Shown here: piece after piece, positions 58,326 through 64,000 of the stretch
Layout of the letters: every line of letters starts with the position of its first letter
How positions within the stretch are numbered: position 1 is the stretch's first letter
Source of the DNA: a virus
Direction: 5' to 3' (one strand)
Length of the DNA stretch: 64,000 bases
IMG/VR virus record: IMGVR_UViG_3300030116_007754
Location: 1-64,000 of that record
Made by a program: the position numbers and the translations under genes
The notes under the pieces: generated by a model
Databases searched by the model: none
The model's input: only the letters and a program-made list of their open reading frames with translations
What the model was told of the DNA's origin: nothing

Positions 58326-59372
58326 TTATTTTTCCTTCTTTAACCAATTTGGATCAAACTTAGTAAGTTCTTTTCCATGTTTGAAGTATTTAGCCTGTTC
58401 AGCTGATGGTAATGGAATTAATCCTTTTGAGACCAAATAACCATCTTCACCAGTAGCTCTATTTGATGTGAATTCCAGTACATACTCTTTTATTCCTGGT
58501 ATCACAGCAGCGTGGACATTCTTTACATAAAACCATAATGATCTTGAAACTGGATATGTACCATTACTAATTAATTCAAATTCTGGTAACACACCATTAA
58601 CAGTTGATGCTTTTACTTTATCTCTATTTTCATCTAAAAATGAATAACCAAATATACCTAATGAGTTAGGATTTGTTATCAATTTTTCGATTATTAAATT
58701 ATCATTCTCACCAGCTTCTATATAAGGACCATCTGTTCTTATTGAACGACATTCTGCTTTATATAATTTCTTATTATTTTCTTTAAGTTTTTTTCTACCT
58801 GGATAACTTTTACAACCTTTTTCTATAGCAAGTTCATTAAGTGCATCTCTAGTACCTGATGTTGGTGGAGGACCATAAACAAGAATAGGTAAATCTGGGT
58901 ATGTAGGATTTATTTCATTCCATTTTTTATATGGATTTGGTTTTACAGTTTTACCAGTTGGATCCGCTGGTACATCTTTTGCAAGTGCAAGATATAAATC
59001 TCTTGTTGATAAATGAAAGTCAACACCTTTTTTAGAATTTGCAACAACTATACCATCATAACCTATTTTTACTTCTGTAATATCTTCTATACCATTTTTT
59101 TTACAATTGTTTACTTCAGTTTGTTTTATTCTTCTTGAAGCATTTGTAATATCAGGATGTTCTGTACCAACACCTGCACAAAACAATTTCAATCCACCAC
59201 CTGAACCAGTTGATTCTATTACTGGTGTCTTATAACCACTTGTTTTACCAAATCGTTCTGCTACTACTGTTGCAAATGGATATACAGTTGAACTACCAAC
59301 TACTTTAATTTGATCTCTTGCAAATACTGAACCTGCAAAAAGTATTGTAAATAAAAAACATATTTTCTTCAT
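58326..59372 (-). CDS. pstS: Periplasmic phosphate-binding protein PstS
   Basis: Substrate-binding protein of the Pst phosphate ABC transporter, an auxiliary metabolic gene in marine phages. The 348-residue protein begins with a signal peptide (MKKICFLFTILFAGSVFA, cleaved about residue 18) and then IKVVGSSTVYPFATVVAERF, ESTGSGGGLKLFCAGVG, HPDITNASRRIKQTE, YGPPPTSGTRDALNELAIEK: the GSSTVYP, GSGGG and SGTRD motifs contact phosphate in PstS. It is read from the accessory operon. A direct repeat like a Pho box lies 44-61 bases upstream. Confidence 0.95.
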   Translation of the reverse strand: MKKICFLFTILFAGSVFARDQIKVVGSSTVYPFATVVAERFGKTSGYKTPVIESTGSGGGLKLFCAGVGTEHPDITNASRRIKQTEVNNCKKNGIEDITEVKIGYDGIVVANSKKGVDFHLSTRDLYLALAKDVPADPTGKTVKPNPYKKWNEINPTYPDLPILVYGPPPTSGTRDALNELAIEKGCKSYPGRKKLKENNKKLYKAECRSIRTDGPYIEAGENDNLIIEKLITNPNSLGIFGYSFLDENRDKVKASTVNGVLPEFELISNGTYPVSRSLWFYVKNVHAAVIPGIKEYVLEFTSNRATGEDGYLVSKGLIPLPSAEQAKYFKHGKELTKFDPNWLKKEK

Positions 59373-59447: not shown

Positions 59448-59981
59448 TTATTTTTCTTTATAATCTTCACCTTTAAGATAACTTAAAATGTTCTGAGGTG
59501 ATGTAACTCCATATGGATCACCAGGACAGTTATCTTCTCTTCCAGGTTCTTCAAATATCTTTTCAACACTACCAGCTGAAATAACAGCTGCATATCTCCA
59601 AGATCTTTTACCAAAACCTAGATTGGACTTTTCAACTAACATTCCCATACCAGAAGTAAATTCACAATTACCATCAGGTAAAACTTTTACATTTTGAATA
59701 TTATGATGTTTAGCCCAAGCATTCATAACAAAAGAATCATTTACTGAAATACAATAAATGTTATCAATACCTTCATTCTTAAACTGATCATACAATCTGT
59801 TAAAATCAGGTAATTGATATGTTGAACAAGTTGGAGTAAATGCTCCAGGTAAAGAAAACAATATATGTTTTCCCTTACCAAAATAATAATCAGTAGATCG
59901 TTCAACCCATTTAAAAGGATTATCGCCCTCTATGTTATCGTCTCTCTCTCTGACTTTAAATATTACGTGTGGTAAAATCAT
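59448..59981 (-). CDS. Peroxiredoxin, Prx5-like
   Basis: A 177-residue thiol peroxidase of the Prx5 type. The peroxidatic site is PGAFTPTCS with Cys52 and Thr49; other family motifs are NDSFVMNAWAKHHNIQNVKV and LPDGNCEFTSGMGM. Extra cysteines at about 77, 106 and near residue 152 (EDNCPGDPYGVTSPQNIL) may resolve the disulphide. Such enzymes reduce hydrogen or alkyl peroxides with glutaredoxin or glutathione. Probably host-derived, carried by the phage to limit oxidative damage during infection. Its start overlaps the gp59 stop by four bases (ATGA). Confidence 0.9.
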   Translation of the reverse strand: MILPHVIFKVRERDDNIEGDNPFKWVERSTDYYFGKGKHILFSLPGAFTPTCSTYQLPDFNRLYDQFKNEGIDNIYCISVNDSFVMNAWAKHHNIQNVKVLPDGNCEFTSGMGMLVEKSNLGFGKRSWRYAAVISAGSVEKIFEEPGREDNCPGDPYGVTSPQNILSYLKGEDYKEK

Positions 59982-60583: not shown

Positions 60584-60785
60584 TGGCTTTTATTAACTTT
60601 AACTCTCTTGCTTCTTCTTTCAATCTTGTTTTTATTTTTTGATTAACTAATTTAGCTGCTGATTCAATCTCTAAATTATTCTTTTGACAATAATCAGTTA
60701 TAGCATCTAAATAAGAAATCTCTTTTGTTTCTACTACTTCAATAATTATCTTACTAAACTTAGCAGTTGTTAATATATTAATCAT
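60576..60785 (-). CDS. gp33: Late transcription co-activator gp33
   Basis: Connects polymerase to the sliding clamp in late transcription. At 69 residues it is shorter than T4 gp33 (112) but typical of marine T4-like phages. Motifs SYLDAITDYCQKNNLEIESA and LVNQKIKTRLKEEARELKLI match the cyanophage gp33 pattern. It lies directly before gp59 as in T4, and overlaps the cupin gene stop (ATGA). It would act on the TATAAATA boxes seen throughout the window. Confidence 0.82.
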   Translation of the reverse strand: MINILTTAKFSKIIIEVVETKEISYLDAITDYCQKNNLEIESAAKLVNQKIKTRLKEEARELKLIKANE

Positions 60786-61129
60786 TTGTTCATTTTCCCA
60801 ACACTCTTTCTTTGAATATCTTCAGACAAAAGCTCGGGCCAATAAATCTCAAAAGCGATAGTATCTTTATTAGCTTTAAATAAATGATACTCTCCAGGTT
60901 TAACTGACATAAAATCTCCTGGTCCTAAAACCGTCTTGTCAATTAAATCATAGTCGTTCTTTATTACATGGATTTCAAGTTCTCCTTCTTCTACAAAAAA
61001 TCCATTCCACTTATGTGAATGTTTATGTGTACTACATTCACCACCTTTATTAACTTCTATTCGGTGAAACTCTACTACAGGATTTTGTAGTAGAGATTCC
61101 GTTACTCCCCATACTTTACCAGCTTTCAA
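60782..61129 (-). CDS. Cupin-domain protein
   Basis: A small single-domain cupin (about 115 residues). Motif 1 is CSTHKHSHKWNGFFVEEGEL (His-x-His and Glu), motif 2 is LGPGDFMSVKPGEYHLFKAN; these residues normally bind a metal. The opening KAGKVWGVTESLL resembles mannose-6-phosphate isomerase-type cupins. The frame is open up to 61234, but TTG at 61127-61129 is preferred: it follows the SleB stop (TAA, 61131-61133) by one base and has AGAAAGGA just before it, whereas the ATG at 61165 lacks a ribosome site. Role unknown; perhaps sugar or small-molecule modification. Confidence 0.75.
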   Translation of the reverse strand: MKAGKVWGVTESLLQNPVVEFHRIEVNKGGECSTHKHSHKWNGFFVEEGELEIHVIKNDYDLIDKTVLGPGDFMSVKPGEYHLFKANKDTIAFEIYWPELLSEDIQRKSVGKMNK

Positions 61130-61130
61130 T

Positions 61131-61799
61131 TTAGTTCCTTTCTGTATAAAAAATATGGTCTTCATGTTTAACTGTATACAACTTTTCTTTAGCCCAATAA
61201 GGTCTAACATAAGTTGCATGATACCATAAAGCACCTTTTGTTACATCAACCATATCATACCCCGATAAAACTTGATGGGCAACAGCTAATGCTAATTCGT
61301 AAGCATCTTGGTCTCTAATGATATCAGCTTTACCATCACAGTACCAACTAAACTGACATCTATCTTTTAGCGGTACTTCTTTGTTTAATTTTTCCTTGTA
61401 CCATTTACTTAATTGTGCCTCATACACAACACCACAAACAGTGTTAGGAAAGTCTTCATGTTGTACTCTATTCATTACAACTTGACTTACAGCTATTTGA
61501 GAAAGTATAGATTGATTTCTAGCTTCAAAGTAAGCATTCTTTGCTAAACAAACAACACTTTCAATATCTTTCTCAGCAGTTTTGTCTCCAGAATAATATT
61601 CATTCATTATTCTAAGACGAGTTTCAAGGCCCATTCCAGGTTTGTGAACCTCTTCCCAGTCTGTCAACAGCCTAGGTGGACCTTCGTCTAATTTCTCTTT
61701 TACCTCTTCAGGTGTATCCAATGTAGCAATTGAAAAGATTATATAACAAAATCCTACAATCAAAAACCACGTTGGGATTCTAAAGTTTGGTAATCTCAT
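61131..61799 (-). CDS. Membrane-anchored SleB-type cell-wall hydrolase (endolysin)
   Basis: A 222-residue SleB/Hydrolase_2 family enzyme, likely the endolysin. An N-terminal membrane segment (WFLIVGFCYIIFSIATL, about 11-27) precedes a linker and the catalytic domain (about 82-222): CLAKNAYFEARNQSILSQIA with the conserved Glu, VVMNRVQHEDFPNTVCGVVY, CQFSWYCDGK, and TKGALWYHATYVRPYW. The hydrophobic anchor suggests a signal-anchor or SAR-type endolysin that does not need a large holin to cross the membrane. A strong sigma-70-like promoter and AAAGGAGG site precede it, so it heads the operon that also contains gp33, gp59 and gp32. Confidence 0.88.
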   Translation of the reverse strand: MRLPNFRIPTWFLIVGFCYIIFSIATLDTPEEVKEKLDEGPPRLLTDWEEVHKPGMGLETRLRIMNEYYSGDKTAEKDIESVVCLAKNAYFEARNQSILSQIAVSQVVMNRVQHEDFPNTVCGVVYEAQLSKWYKEKLNKEVPLKDRCQFSWYCDGKADIIRDQDAYELALAVAHQVLSGYDMVDVTKGALWYHATYVRPYWAKEKLYTVKHEDHIFYTERN

Positions 61800-61899: not shown

Positions 61900-62292
61900 C
61901 TACTCTTTGCAACTACACTTTACTTCATAATCTTTGATCGCAGCTTTGATAGCGTCTTCTGCAAGAACAGAACAATGGATTTTAACTGGTGGTAACGCCA
62001 AAGTTGTTGCAATGTCAGTATTCCTAATTTTCGTTGCTTCATCTGTATTTTTTCCTTTTACCATTTCAGTTATAAGTGAACTAGATGCGATAGCTGAACC
62101 ACATCCAAATGTTTTAAATTTAGCATCAGTAATAGTTTTAGTTTCTGGATCCACTTTTATCTGTAGTTTCATAACATCACCACAAGCTGGTGCACCTACT
62201 AATCCTGTTCCAACATTTGGATCCTCTTTATCCATAGACCCAACGTTTCTTGGATTCTCATAATGATCTATTAATTGTTTACTATATGCCAT
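61900..62292 (-). CDS. iscU: Iron-sulphur cluster scaffold IscU
   Basis: A 130-residue IscU/NifU-N type scaffold on which Fe-S clusters are built. The ligand residues are present: Cys37 and Asp39 in GAPACGDVMKL, Cys64 in FGCGSAIASSS and His106-Cys107 in LPPVKIHCSVLAEDAI, the last containing the LPPVK motif bound by HscA. The length equals bacterial IscU (128). The C-terminal KCSCKE adds two cysteines. No clear ribosome site precedes the ATG. An IscA-like gene is at the window end. Probably host-derived and used to supply Fe-S enzymes during infection. Confidence 0.93.
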   Translation of the reverse strand: MAYSKQLIDHYENPRNVGSMDKEDPNVGTGLVGAPACGDVMKLQIKVDPETKTITDAKFKTFGCGSAIASSSLITEMVKGKNTDEATKIRNTDIATTLALPPVKIHCSVLAEDAIKAAIKDYEVKCSCKE

Positions 62293-62300
62293 ACTAATAT

Positions 62301-63239
62301 TTATATAACTTTGAGCTCTTCAGTTATTCTCTTTATATAATGATCTCTAACCATATCACCTTCGTGAACAAATAACATACAAGAGCAATATGCACAGTTT
62401 CTTCCTTGTAAAAGATACTCTAATATAATATGTTTATAATCCTTTATTTTATTATTATGTTTAATCAATGGAATAGTATCAATATTATTCCTATCTAATA
62501 ATTCAACTGAATTATATATAAAGTCTGTTGTATCTTCATGTTTCAAATTATTTAACTTTAAAAAATTAGCATATTTTATTTTATCTCTATTATATAAACT
62601 AAACAATAAAGAATATACTGTACCAAATTGATGTTTCAATTCATCAGACTCAAATAGATCAGCTGTATCACTTATCAATCCATCAGGAGTAACATCACTA
62701 ATAGCTGCCTTATCCCACAAGAAGTTCCATTCACTATCTAACATATATTCTAATAATTCTGTTAACTTTTTTGGATCACCGTTGTCTTCAATGTATTCTT
62801 TTCGATTACATTTGTAATCCATTTTAAAATAATACTGTTTGTTGAAAGGATCATAATTAATTACATCTATTATATCAACTGAAGATCTTTTAAATATTCT
62901 AGAATTATCAACTATAGTTTTTTCTTTAACACTACATCCACCAATATAGTCAGGAAAAAAAGGTTGATATCTTGACTGAAAAATTCCTGTTTTATTCTTC
63001 CATACTTTTTTAGTTACTTGGTAACCCATATAAAAGATATCTGTCTTTATAATATCTTCATAGTCGTTATCATTTTCAACATCTAATATATGATGAAATT
63101 TATAAGGTATGCCTGTACCTTTATAATAATGTTTGGATCCTTTCCATACACGACCTCTAACATAAGTCAGATCATCATCTATAACTATTTGATTTGTTTT
63201 GTTACCTTGTTGATTATAGATTGGTACGATAGTAGTCAT
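62301..63239 (-). CDS. Unknown 312-residue protein
   Basis: I do not recognise this protein. It is hydrophilic, Asp/Tyr/Lys-rich and has no signal or membrane segment. Notable parts are VRGRVWKGSKHYYKGTGIPY near residue 30, RKEYIEDNGDPKKLTELLEY in the middle and a cysteine cluster near the end (GRNCAYCSCMLFVHEGDMVR). The cluster could bind zinc or a metal; this is speculative. Neighbours are iscU (downstream) and the PqqA-like gene (upstream). A sigma-70-like promoter ends five bases before the ATG, which lacks a well-placed ribosome site. Confidence 0.75.
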   Translation of the reverse strand: MTTIVPIYNQQGNKTNQIVIDDDLTYVRGRVWKGSKHYYKGTGIPYKFHHILDVENDNDYEDIIKTDIFYMGYQVTKKVWKNKTGIFQSRYQPFFPDYIGGCSVKEKTIVDNSRIFKRSSVDIIDVINYDPFNKQYYFKMDYKCNRKEYIEDNGDPKKLTELLEYMLDSEWNFLWDKAAISDVTPDGLISDTADLFESDELKHQFGTVYSLLFSLYNRDKIKYANFLKLNNLKHEDTTDFIYNSVELLDRNNIDTIPLIKHNNKIKDYKHIILEYLLQGRNCAYCSCMLFVHEGDMVRDHYIKRITEELKVI

Positions 63240-63273: not shown

Positions 63274-63304
63274 TGGGCTAGTTTCTATGAAAGACTTAGC
63301 CCAT
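63262..63304 (-). terminator. Rho-independent terminator after the PqqA-like gene
   Basis: On the minus strand ATGGGCTA (63304-63297) pairs with TAGCCCAT (63280-63273) as an 8-base stem extended by AGT/ACT pairs, followed by TGACTTTTTTT, a run of seven T. It lies 12 bases after the stop codon of the 25-residue gene. Confidence 0.85.
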
Positions 63305-63315
63305 GACAAAAGAAA

Positions 63316-63393
63316 TTACTTCTCTGCGCAAGCGTAAGAGTTAATTTCAAGACCTACAGAGATTTCTGTAATTTGAGGTTTTGTCCAAGACAT
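63316..63393 (-). CDS. pqqA: PqqA-like pyrroloquinoline quinone precursor peptide
   Basis: A 25-residue peptide reading MSWTKPQITEISVGLEINSY then ACAEK. It matches the PqqA family: Trp-x-Lys-Pro near the start, Val-Gly-x-Glu in the middle and the diagnostic Glu16-x3-Tyr20 pair (E-I-N-S-Y) that the radical-SAM enzyme PqqE crosslinks to make PQQ. An excellent AAGGAG site lies six bases before the ATG and a strong terminator follows 12 bases after the stop, so this is a real expressed gene. No pqqB, C, D or E is in the window; host enzymes would have to process it. IscA and IscU genes flank it at a short distance. Confidence 0.82.
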   Translation of the reverse strand: MSWTKPQITEISVGLEINSYACAEK

Positions 63394-63556
63394 GTTTGCT
63401 CCTTATATTAATATTAATATTTGTTTGAGCCGGTTGCCGAACGACCGCGGTCCTCATACATTATTTAGAATACCATACTACATTGTATCTGAACCTACGA
63501 TTAACAACTCGTTAAGAAAACTATATTTTTTGATTTTTTTTTATAATAATAATCAA
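63394..63556. other. Longest non-coding gap (163 bases)
   Basis: Besides the GC-rich inverted repeat this holds an AT-rich stretch with repeated TATTAATAT before the PqqA ribosome site, a small inverted repeat TTAAC/GTTAA near 63500, and a possible -10 (TACAAT) without a clear -35. I see no complete tRNA. Confidence 0.5.
63426..63456. other. GC-rich inverted repeat in the PqqA leader region
   Basis: A 31-base segment, 21 of them G or C in otherwise very AT-rich DNA. TGAG/CTCA ends enclose CCGGTTG and CGACCG arms around a CCGAA loop; inside lies the perfect palindrome GACCGCGGTC (63443-63452). The fold is slightly better on the plus strand (a G-U pair replaces a mismatch). No T tract follows on either side. 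It may be a transcribed structure or a protein site. Confidence 0.55.
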
Positions 63557-63700
63557 TTAGAAGTATTCACGAATCTTATCGAGAGGTTTTTTAAGTGGCT
63601 TATATACACTCATTATAAGTTCTACATGATTGTCTAACTTTTTTTCTATCCTATCAATTTGTTTTTGAATTTTGTCAAGTTTTTTTTCAAGATCAGACAC
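63557..63700 (-). CDS. 47-residue coiled-coil protein
   Basis: A short gene starting with GTG at 63698-63700: VSDLEKKLDKIQKQIDRIEK, KLDNHVELIMSVYKPLKKPL, DKIREYF. The first half is a heptad coiled coil. The GTG overlaps the IscA stop by eight bases with GGAGA eight bases upstream, so it is probably translated with iscA. No family recognised; it could be an accessory to IscA or an independent oligomeric regulator. Confidence 0.6.
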   Translation of the reverse strand: MSDLEKKLDKIQKQIDRIEKKLDNHVELIMSVYKPLKKPLDKIREYF

Positions 63701-64000
63701 TGAAAGATTCTCCACAACCACAAGATGATTTAGTAAGTGGATTATTTATTTTAAGAAAACTTCCCATAAGTTCTTGAACATAATCAATCTCACTTCCCAT
63801 AATATACATTTCTGCAACCTTATCTATAGCAAGTACAACATTATCTCTAATTGGGTATATAGAGTGAGAATTATCGTAACTATCAAGATAATCCCACTTA
63901 TAACTGAATCCAGCACATCCTCCTCCTGAAACTCCAAATGATATTATATCTTTGTTATTTTTCTTAGCAATAGAATACAAATATTCTTTTGCACTATCTG
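63693..64000 (-). CDS. iscA: A-type Fe-S cluster carrier IscA/HesB-like (5' end outside window)
   Basis: The frame runs off the right edge of the window; the visible part is about 102 residues. It shows the IscA/HesB plan: VSGGGCAGFSYKWDYLD with the first cysteine, a middle acidic-hydrophobic segment (NVVLAIDKVAEMYIMGSEID), YVQELMGSFLKINNP and the C-terminal SSCGCGESF pair. These three cysteines bind iron or a cluster. With iscU at 61900 it gives the phage two Fe-S assembly factors. The TTG at 63978-63980 is probably not the true start because the frame continues in DSAKEYL, which fits the family start. Confidence 0.9.
   Translation of the reverse strand, partial: DSAKEYLYSIAKKNNKDIISFGVSGGGCAGFSYKWDYLDSYDNSHSIYPIRDNVVLAIDKVAEMYIMGSEIDYVQELMGSFLKINNPLTKSSCGCGESFSV

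Follow-up and report, generated by a model that had tools for sequence, protein, structure and literature searches.

A stand-alone pqqA gene behind a structured RNA leader in a T4-like marine phage: a probable precursor supply to host PQQ synthesis

Overview

PqqA is the peptide from which PqqE and its partners make the redox cofactor PQQ, and a gene for it is carried by the phage DNA analyzed here (the window: 64,000 nucleotides, positions 1 to 64,000 of IMG/VR record IMGVR_UViG_3300030116_007754, a linear record of 69,051 bases that is itself incomplete). The gene is conserved in many other viruses, is under purifying selection, lies behind a structured RNA leader and has a quinoprotein-associated carrier gene close by. 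The role that appears probable from these sequences is stand-alone precursor supply to the PQQ pathway of the host, under RNA-level control, which would sustain alcohol oxidation by a XoxF-type dehydrogenase.

The pqqA gene and its signals

63316–63393, minus strand: pqqA, 25 codons, encoding MSWTKPQITEISVGLEINSYACAEK followed by a stop; matches PF08042 and TIGR02107
63399–63404, minus strand: Shine-Dalgarno sequence AAGGAG, 5 nt 5' of the pqqA ATG and kept in relatives
63274–63303, minus strand: hairpin TGGGCTA...TAGCCCA with T-rich sequence after it, which probably acts as the terminator or as an attenuator of pqqA

The original prediction of a 25-codon PqqA-like precursor gene is borne out, with MSWTKPQITEISVGLEINSYACAEK exceeding the curated cut-offs of both Pfam PF08042 (35.1 bits, cut-off 21.1) and NCBIfam TIGR02107 (39.6 bits, cut-off 20). 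Its claimed motifs W-T-K-P, V-G-L-E and E-x3-Y are all present, the last as E16-x3-Y20, numbering that coincides with the crosslinked Glu16/Tyr20 pair of Methylorubrum PqqA (PMC10906245), and the Shine-Dalgarno sequence it named was likewise found. The PqqA pattern has one match in the window versus none in 100 shuffles. Based on sequence, the product is well supported as a genuine PqqA precursor peptide whose processing is predicted. The claim that the gene has its own terminator is plausible: the downstream hairpin (7 bp, G+C-rich, z −2.6) was not called by a strict terminator scan, but a terminator is nonetheless likely because the hairpin has a T-rich tail and a strong hairpin occupies the same place 3' of pqqA in the relatives compared.

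Spread and selection among viruses

The pattern W-T-K-P...E-x3-Y was found in 111 IMG/VR stretches, all of them ATG-started open reading frames of 23–26 codons and nearly all preceded by a Shine-Dalgarno sequence. Three patterns together give at least about 275 distinct stretches with a PqqA-like frame, although the scans are ascertained and the sequences counted do not each represent an independent event. The viral peptides are of three types, GLEINS, GLEINC and GFEVT, and in one large phage group pqqA lies between the portal and the GroES/capsid genes. When E and Y were left free in the pattern, both were kept in 154/154 of the matches listed; a relaxed search yielded 149 distinct viral peptides among the matches listed, E-x3-Y being present in 149/149, and no match in 4.1 Mb of reversed sequence. 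These open reading frames are not chance occurrences. The pN/pS ratio is 0.075 for the window lineage (14 sequences) and 0.17–0.25 in broader groups, and phage pqqA is under strong purifying selection.

The retention of both crosslink residues bears on the suggestion, also raised in the original prediction, that the peptide occupies the host PQQ enzymes, flooding PqqD/PqqE as a decoy that blocks or diverts host PQQ synthesis. PqqA binds PqqD tightly, with a Kd of 0.39 uM (PMC10906245), and a surplus could occupy this chaperone; however, an inhibitor does not need both crosslink residues, and since every viral copy keeps them a decoy is disfavored. The phage furthermore brings a gene of the quinoprotein system, and presumed hosts of the HIMB59 type themselves have extra pqqA copies, making a decoy very unlikely.

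Cultured phages also carry the gene. A tblastn search with a GFEVT-type peptide found it in Venkman, four Melnitz isolates, P19250A, MEP301, MEP401 and MEP402, amounting to six cultured phage kinds, all of which infect Methylophilales. In the five cultured-phage regions opened, pqqA is led by a Shine-Dalgarno sequence, has 23–24 codons and is without annotation, and in Melnitz it is overlapped by an antisense hypothetical gene; the five peptides scored reach 34–41 bits against TIGR02107. Short frames such as pqqA are thus routinely missed in phage annotation. The recurrence of pqqA in many viruses, cultured ones included, suggests that viruses feed the PQQ-dependent alcohol oxidation of their hosts while infecting them. 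As pqqA is present in phages whose hosts are also in culture, namely Venkman and Melnitz (host Methylophilales H5P1) and P19250A (host IMCC19250), a phage push on methanol oxidation through PQQ is testable now.

Two sets of matches were set aside. Those labeled 'Acinetobacter phage MD-2021a' (CAKLQF020000010.1, CAKLQH020000055.1) were rejected; the one examined, CAKLQF020000010.1, contains a bacterial pqqABCDE operon. A 'Maricaulis' metagenome-assembled pqqA contig (NZMJ01000006.1) was rejected as cellular, as the surrounding genes are those of a phage; it is phage DNA with pqqA, which probably entered the bin through misbinning or an infecting phage.

The phage contig and the neighbors of pqqA

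63693–64000 (to 64016 on the contig), minus strand: IscA/SufA-like Fe-S protein (PF01521, 49.6 bits; TIGR00049)
62301–63239, minus strand: 312-aa protein between pqqA and iscU, no family matched
61900–62292, minus strand: IscU Fe-S scaffold (TIGR01999, 215.7 bits)
Contig 63994–64764 (L002:14095-14865), last bases 63994–64000 in the window, minus strand: SoxYZ-like carrier, quinoprotein dehydrogenase-associated (TIGR04557)

Genes for a tail sheath, a gp32-like SSB, a gp59 loader, a late-transcription coactivator and a baseplate lie on the pqqA contig, and its nearest named DNA matches are marine cyanophages; judged by gene content, it is a bona fide viral contig from a T4-like phage. The motif recurs with the same neighbors in other phages, as the original prediction had proposed to check: 11 related contigs have pqqA in the same slot between the IscA-like gene and iscU, and the 312-aa gene is missing from the pqqA–iscU interval in several relatives. 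Fe-S supply to PqqE was considered as the reason for this neighborhood but is not supported as a specific one; pqqA lies within 4 kb in only 2/80 viral iscU loci, so its position beside iscU is not specific.

The SoxYZ-like gene adjoins the IscA-like gene just past the window end. Its product scores 143.2 bits against TIGR04557, a narrow margin over the cut-off of 140, and stays below the cut-offs of true SoxY and SoxZ (TIGR04488, 30.5 versus 125 bits; TIGR04490, 29.2 versus 76 bits). It has the GGC carrier arm KAAGGCSAP in common with host homologues. Used as the sole query, the gene retrieved 12 contigs, with pqqA in 11/12 and the twelfth stopping short of the slot, and related carriers also occur on pqqA contigs of other phage groups (e.g., L284, L291).

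Several further genes were observed in these regions. A 113-aa, probably exported protein of no known family (L002:14862-15203, motif YKWSGKGxLYDxRNQY) is found near pqqA in two phage groups; among the 47 viral contigs that carry it, 18 have pqqA within reach. Possible further auxiliary genes of the window encode a PstS-like phosphate-binding protein (58326–59372), a peroxiredoxin-like protein with a weak AhpC match (59448–59981) and a cupin (60782–61234). On several contigs, permuted tmRNA genes of alphaproteobacterial type (tags such as ANDNFASQEYALAA) lie directly 5' of phage pqqA (L303:4603-4935, L310:1031-1363, L328:3757-4089, L350:2284-2608, L098:546-842).

As originally stated, there is no other pqq gene in the window, which lacks pqqBCDE as well as XoxF. 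Among 50 viral records, neither a pqqE above cut-off nor a PQQ-dependent alcohol dehydrogenase was found, and queries with host PqqB/C/D/E and XoxF gave no match either in the window or in 589 viral loci, with controls detected. Many viral records are fragments, so this absence is not proof, and as the window contig is incomplete (69 kb) a phage dehydrogenase could lie elsewhere in the genome. Viral contigs without a modifying enzyme of the pathway, together with processing that is not evident from sequence, might instead point to a PqqA-like peptide with another function, such as a regulatory or antimicrobial RiPP. This is hardly credible given that two curated cut-offs are exceeded, that motif and length are those of cellular PqqA, that the peptide types track the presumed host type and that a quinoprotein gene lies in the same neighborhood.

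A structured RNA leader in front of viral pqqA

63426–63456, minus strand: structured RNA leader, UGAG-GA-CCG-CG-GUC-GUUC-GGC-AAC-CGG-CUCA, with a 5' bulge between P1 and P2 and the internal loop CG/AAC between P2 and P3
63457–63556, minus strand: upstream block conserved in the alignment (TTCTTAAC..., TTAATCGTA, TAAATAAT-like), possibly a promoter

In the window lineage the block CCGCGGTC...CAACCGG is conserved 5' of pqqA, and other phage groups have AGTGGACTGCGGTC...CAACCAGCACT at the equivalent place; one hairpin fits both sequence types. P1 occurs as UGAG/CUCA, AGUG/CACU or GAAG/CUUC and is followed by a 5' bulge G-N, P2 as CCG/CGG, CUG/CAG or UCG/CGA and is followed by the internal loop CG/AAC, and P3 as GUC/GAC, GUC/GGC or GCC/GGC. 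Two-sided changes are seen in 9/12 pairs among 47 distinct sequences, which were picked by pqqA and a short anchor and not by pairing; this covariation partly reflects a few lineages, although several pairs show at least three pair types. The covariation score is 0.323, versus 0.145 ± 0.013 for shuffled and at most 0.074 for slid alignments, and RNAalifold, unaided, returns the same fold.

The element was found almost exclusively in front of viral pqqA. Its anchor is present in 57/68 distinct upstream regions of the GLEINS type, 2/83 of the GLEINC type and 0/45 of the GFEVT type. When IMG/VR was scanned for the element only, pqqA alone was found downstream among the low-G+C matches listed, some encoding an ITVVS variant and one contig ending too early to show its downstream gene; matches in high-G+C coding sequence were regarded as background and not counted. 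A covariance model of the leader has a single match in the window (63421–63459, 45.5 bits, E 7e-10) and none across the viral loci (659 kb) that had been selected via other genes. Rfam 15 has no match to the leader, a candidate new RNA family.

Among cellular genomes, the leader was found in 1/32 of the HIMB59 type and 1/385 Alphaproteobacteria, both being the same genome (G006), where it lies 5' of the heat-shock sigma factor gene rpoH, adjoining a gene for an RluA-family pseudouridine synthase. This copy (L729, G006:C2:10941-10982) includes the GGAGTTGAT ribosome-binding region, and rpoH of relatives is without the leader. Inheritance of the leader from host pqqA is not supported, as host pqqA genes have no match and any match at all is seen in 1/385 Alphaproteobacteria; a PQQ-specific riboswitch, weakened by the rpoH copy, was dropped as the main claim. 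The element, occurring before both viral pqqA and the rpoH of G006, is thus a portable phage leader that is not strictly bound to PQQ and probably has a regulatory role. A bolder and rather doubtful proposal is that it represents a new ligand- or signal-responsive RNA class (responding, e.g., to PQQ itself, to an intermediate of its synthesis or to a metabolite linked to infection), that phages shuttle a 'pqqA cassette' with its own regulation between unrelated genomes and that one host captured the same control for rpoH.

As leader and pqqA occur together in phage groups with little else in common, the cassette moves, and it could be thought of as a selfish or neutral unit that hitch-hikes between phages with no effect on fitness. 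Such a reading is highly improbable in view of the pN/pS of 0.075 in the window lineage, the fixed slot in 11 relatives and the compensatory changes in the leader.

The likely host

The host is likely a HIMB59-type marine alphaproteobacterium, judging by peptide similarity, G+C and gene content. The closest cellular peptides, MAWTKP[MTI]ISEISVGLEINSYACAEK, come from streamlined marine Alphaproteobacteria, one of which is labeled HIMB59, and the HIMB59-type PqqA MAWTKPTISEISVGLEINSYACAEK is identical to the window peptide in 22/25 residues. The G+C contents are consistent (window 0.326, host loci 0.27–0.36), and IscU identity was discarded as a guide, being 77–81% to several lineages and therefore not discriminating.

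Host lineages lacking PQQ genes had been named as evidence that would speak against the original prediction; in this presumed host lineage the genes are present. The HIMB59-type family has pqqA in 31/32 genomes, mostly in 2–5 copies. A pqqE scoring 568–575 bits is found in 7/7 genomes examined, and 10/10 candidate genomes have pqqE, which is adjoined by pqqB/C/D at the loci read. One PQQ alcohol dehydrogenase per genome exceeds the TIGR03075 cut-off (7/7); it is of XoxF type, nearest to the lanthanide-dependent XoxF 6oc5 (880 bits) and with WDYDG kept. In the same cluster, about 8 kb or less from the operon pqqA, lies a SoxYZ-like gene (7/7) whose product has 30–37% identity to the phage protein. 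Separately, both operon and orphan pqqA of the HIMB59 type have a conserved leader of their own (ATTAAC...ATGAAT...CTCAG...TTAAG) about 120 nt upstream (L115-L226), which may represent a regulator site or a different RNA.

Proposed role of the phage peptide

PqqA is consumed in PQQ synthesis, while the enzymes are not. As it is the sole pathway component used one-for-one with the product, a 75-bp gene would buy flux without whole enzymes. In the proposed mechanism, expression of the phage gene would be set by the structured leader 5' of the ribosome-binding site, and the stand-alone peptide would be taken by host PqqD/PqqE and the later enzymes to more PQQ during infection. The extra PQQ would load the host XoxF-type dehydrogenase, with periplasmic alcohol (methanol) oxidation passing electrons to cytochrome c during phage replication, and the phage may also add its own quinoprotein-associated SoxYZ-like carrier. 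In PQQ synthesis, PqqE acts together with PqqD to introduce the crosslink into PqqA, and the peptide is subsequently cut and oxidized to PQQ (PMC10906245). An association of SoxYZ-like carriers with dehydrogenases that depend on PQQ and lanthanides has also been described (PMC12997753). Overexpression of parts of the pqq cluster gives more PQQ; in Acetobacter, however, PQQ rose by 29% with pqqAB versus eightfold with the whole operon (PMC7936290), and precursor supply alone may therefore give little.

The original prediction of a supply boost that would raise PQQ-dependent dehydrogenase activity is the best-supported mechanism, in line with pqqE, XoxF and multiplied pqqA in the host lineage and the carrier gene of the phage. 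The peptide might also feed the host pathway for a benefit other than XoxF energy, through another quinoprotein or through redox or stress protection; the peroxiredoxin-like gene near pqqA and the position of the sole host leader copy before rpoH would fit. This version is unlikely, as the single dehydrogenase above the TIGR03075 cut-off in each HIMB59-type genome is XoxF-like and the SoxYZ-like carrier is a member of the XoxF cluster. Supply of precursor for XoxF-dependent alcohol oxidation thus remains the preferred reading, and it would make the provision of a RiPP precursor instead of an enzyme a common viral supply strategy.

Comparison with known systems

Phage PqqA has a precedent, reported in 2020 for VP_266, a population of T4-like methylophages from Lake Baikal (Coutinho 2020, PMC7678222), and viral pqqA is also listed in PMC13188868. 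VP_266 shares with the window phage a PqqA encoded by a T4-like phage and the same proposed logic; its host, however, is a freshwater member of the Methylophilaceae, and a methanol dehydrogenase is reported in those phages (PMC7678222), whereas in the phages described here no dehydrogenase was found, and they are of a marine alphaproteobacterial type with an RNA leader and a SoxYZ-like carrier. New relative to the literature searched, in which PqqA, OM43 and phage are nowhere mentioned together, are the breadth of the distribution, the unannotated cultured carriers, viral contigs with no other PQQ genes, the quinoprotein carrier and the leader. The original prediction was right about the gene but missed its minus strand, the leader, the SoxYZ-like neighbor, its presence in cultured phages and the precedent from 2020. 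Those phages of Methylophilales in culture (Venkman, Melnitz, P19250A, MEP301, MEP401, MEP402) resemble the window phage in their stand-alone pqqA led by a Shine-Dalgarno sequence, and differ in having a GFEVTMY-type peptide, other neighbors and no RNA element.

In comparison with cellular PqqA (PF08042/TIGR02107), the phage peptide is alike in length, in W-x2-P and G-x-E-x3-Y and in exceeding both cut-offs; the phage gene, unlike its cellular counterparts, is viral, lies between Fe-S genes without pqqBCDE and follows an RNA leader that host pqqA genes lack. Extra orphan pqqA copies without other pqq genes are likewise known from methylotrophs, one of which is described as having five pqqA copies (PMC9851590; see also Ge 2015, cited there), but these are chromosomal and not viral. 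Like cis-regulatory leaders and riboswitches, the phage element is a conserved hairpin with an invariant internal loop 6–40 nt before the start codon; it is unlike the known classes in having no Rfam match and one host copy before rpoH.

Phage soxYZ genes have been described as sulfur auxiliary metabolic genes and interpreted as serving thiosulfate oxidation (Kieft 2021, PMC8190135). As here, those genes encode a fused SoxYZ that bears GGCS and CC motifs, and they include a Methylophilales-like clade and marine phages; the protein described here departs from that reading by scoring as a quinoprotein-associated carrier and by co-occurring with pqqA. By this comparison, some of the phage soxYZ genes in PMC8190135 may belong to quinoprotein alcohol oxidation and not to thiosulfate oxidation, which is a reason to recheck the phage 'soxYZ' counted in sulfur cycling for a role in alcohol oxidation.
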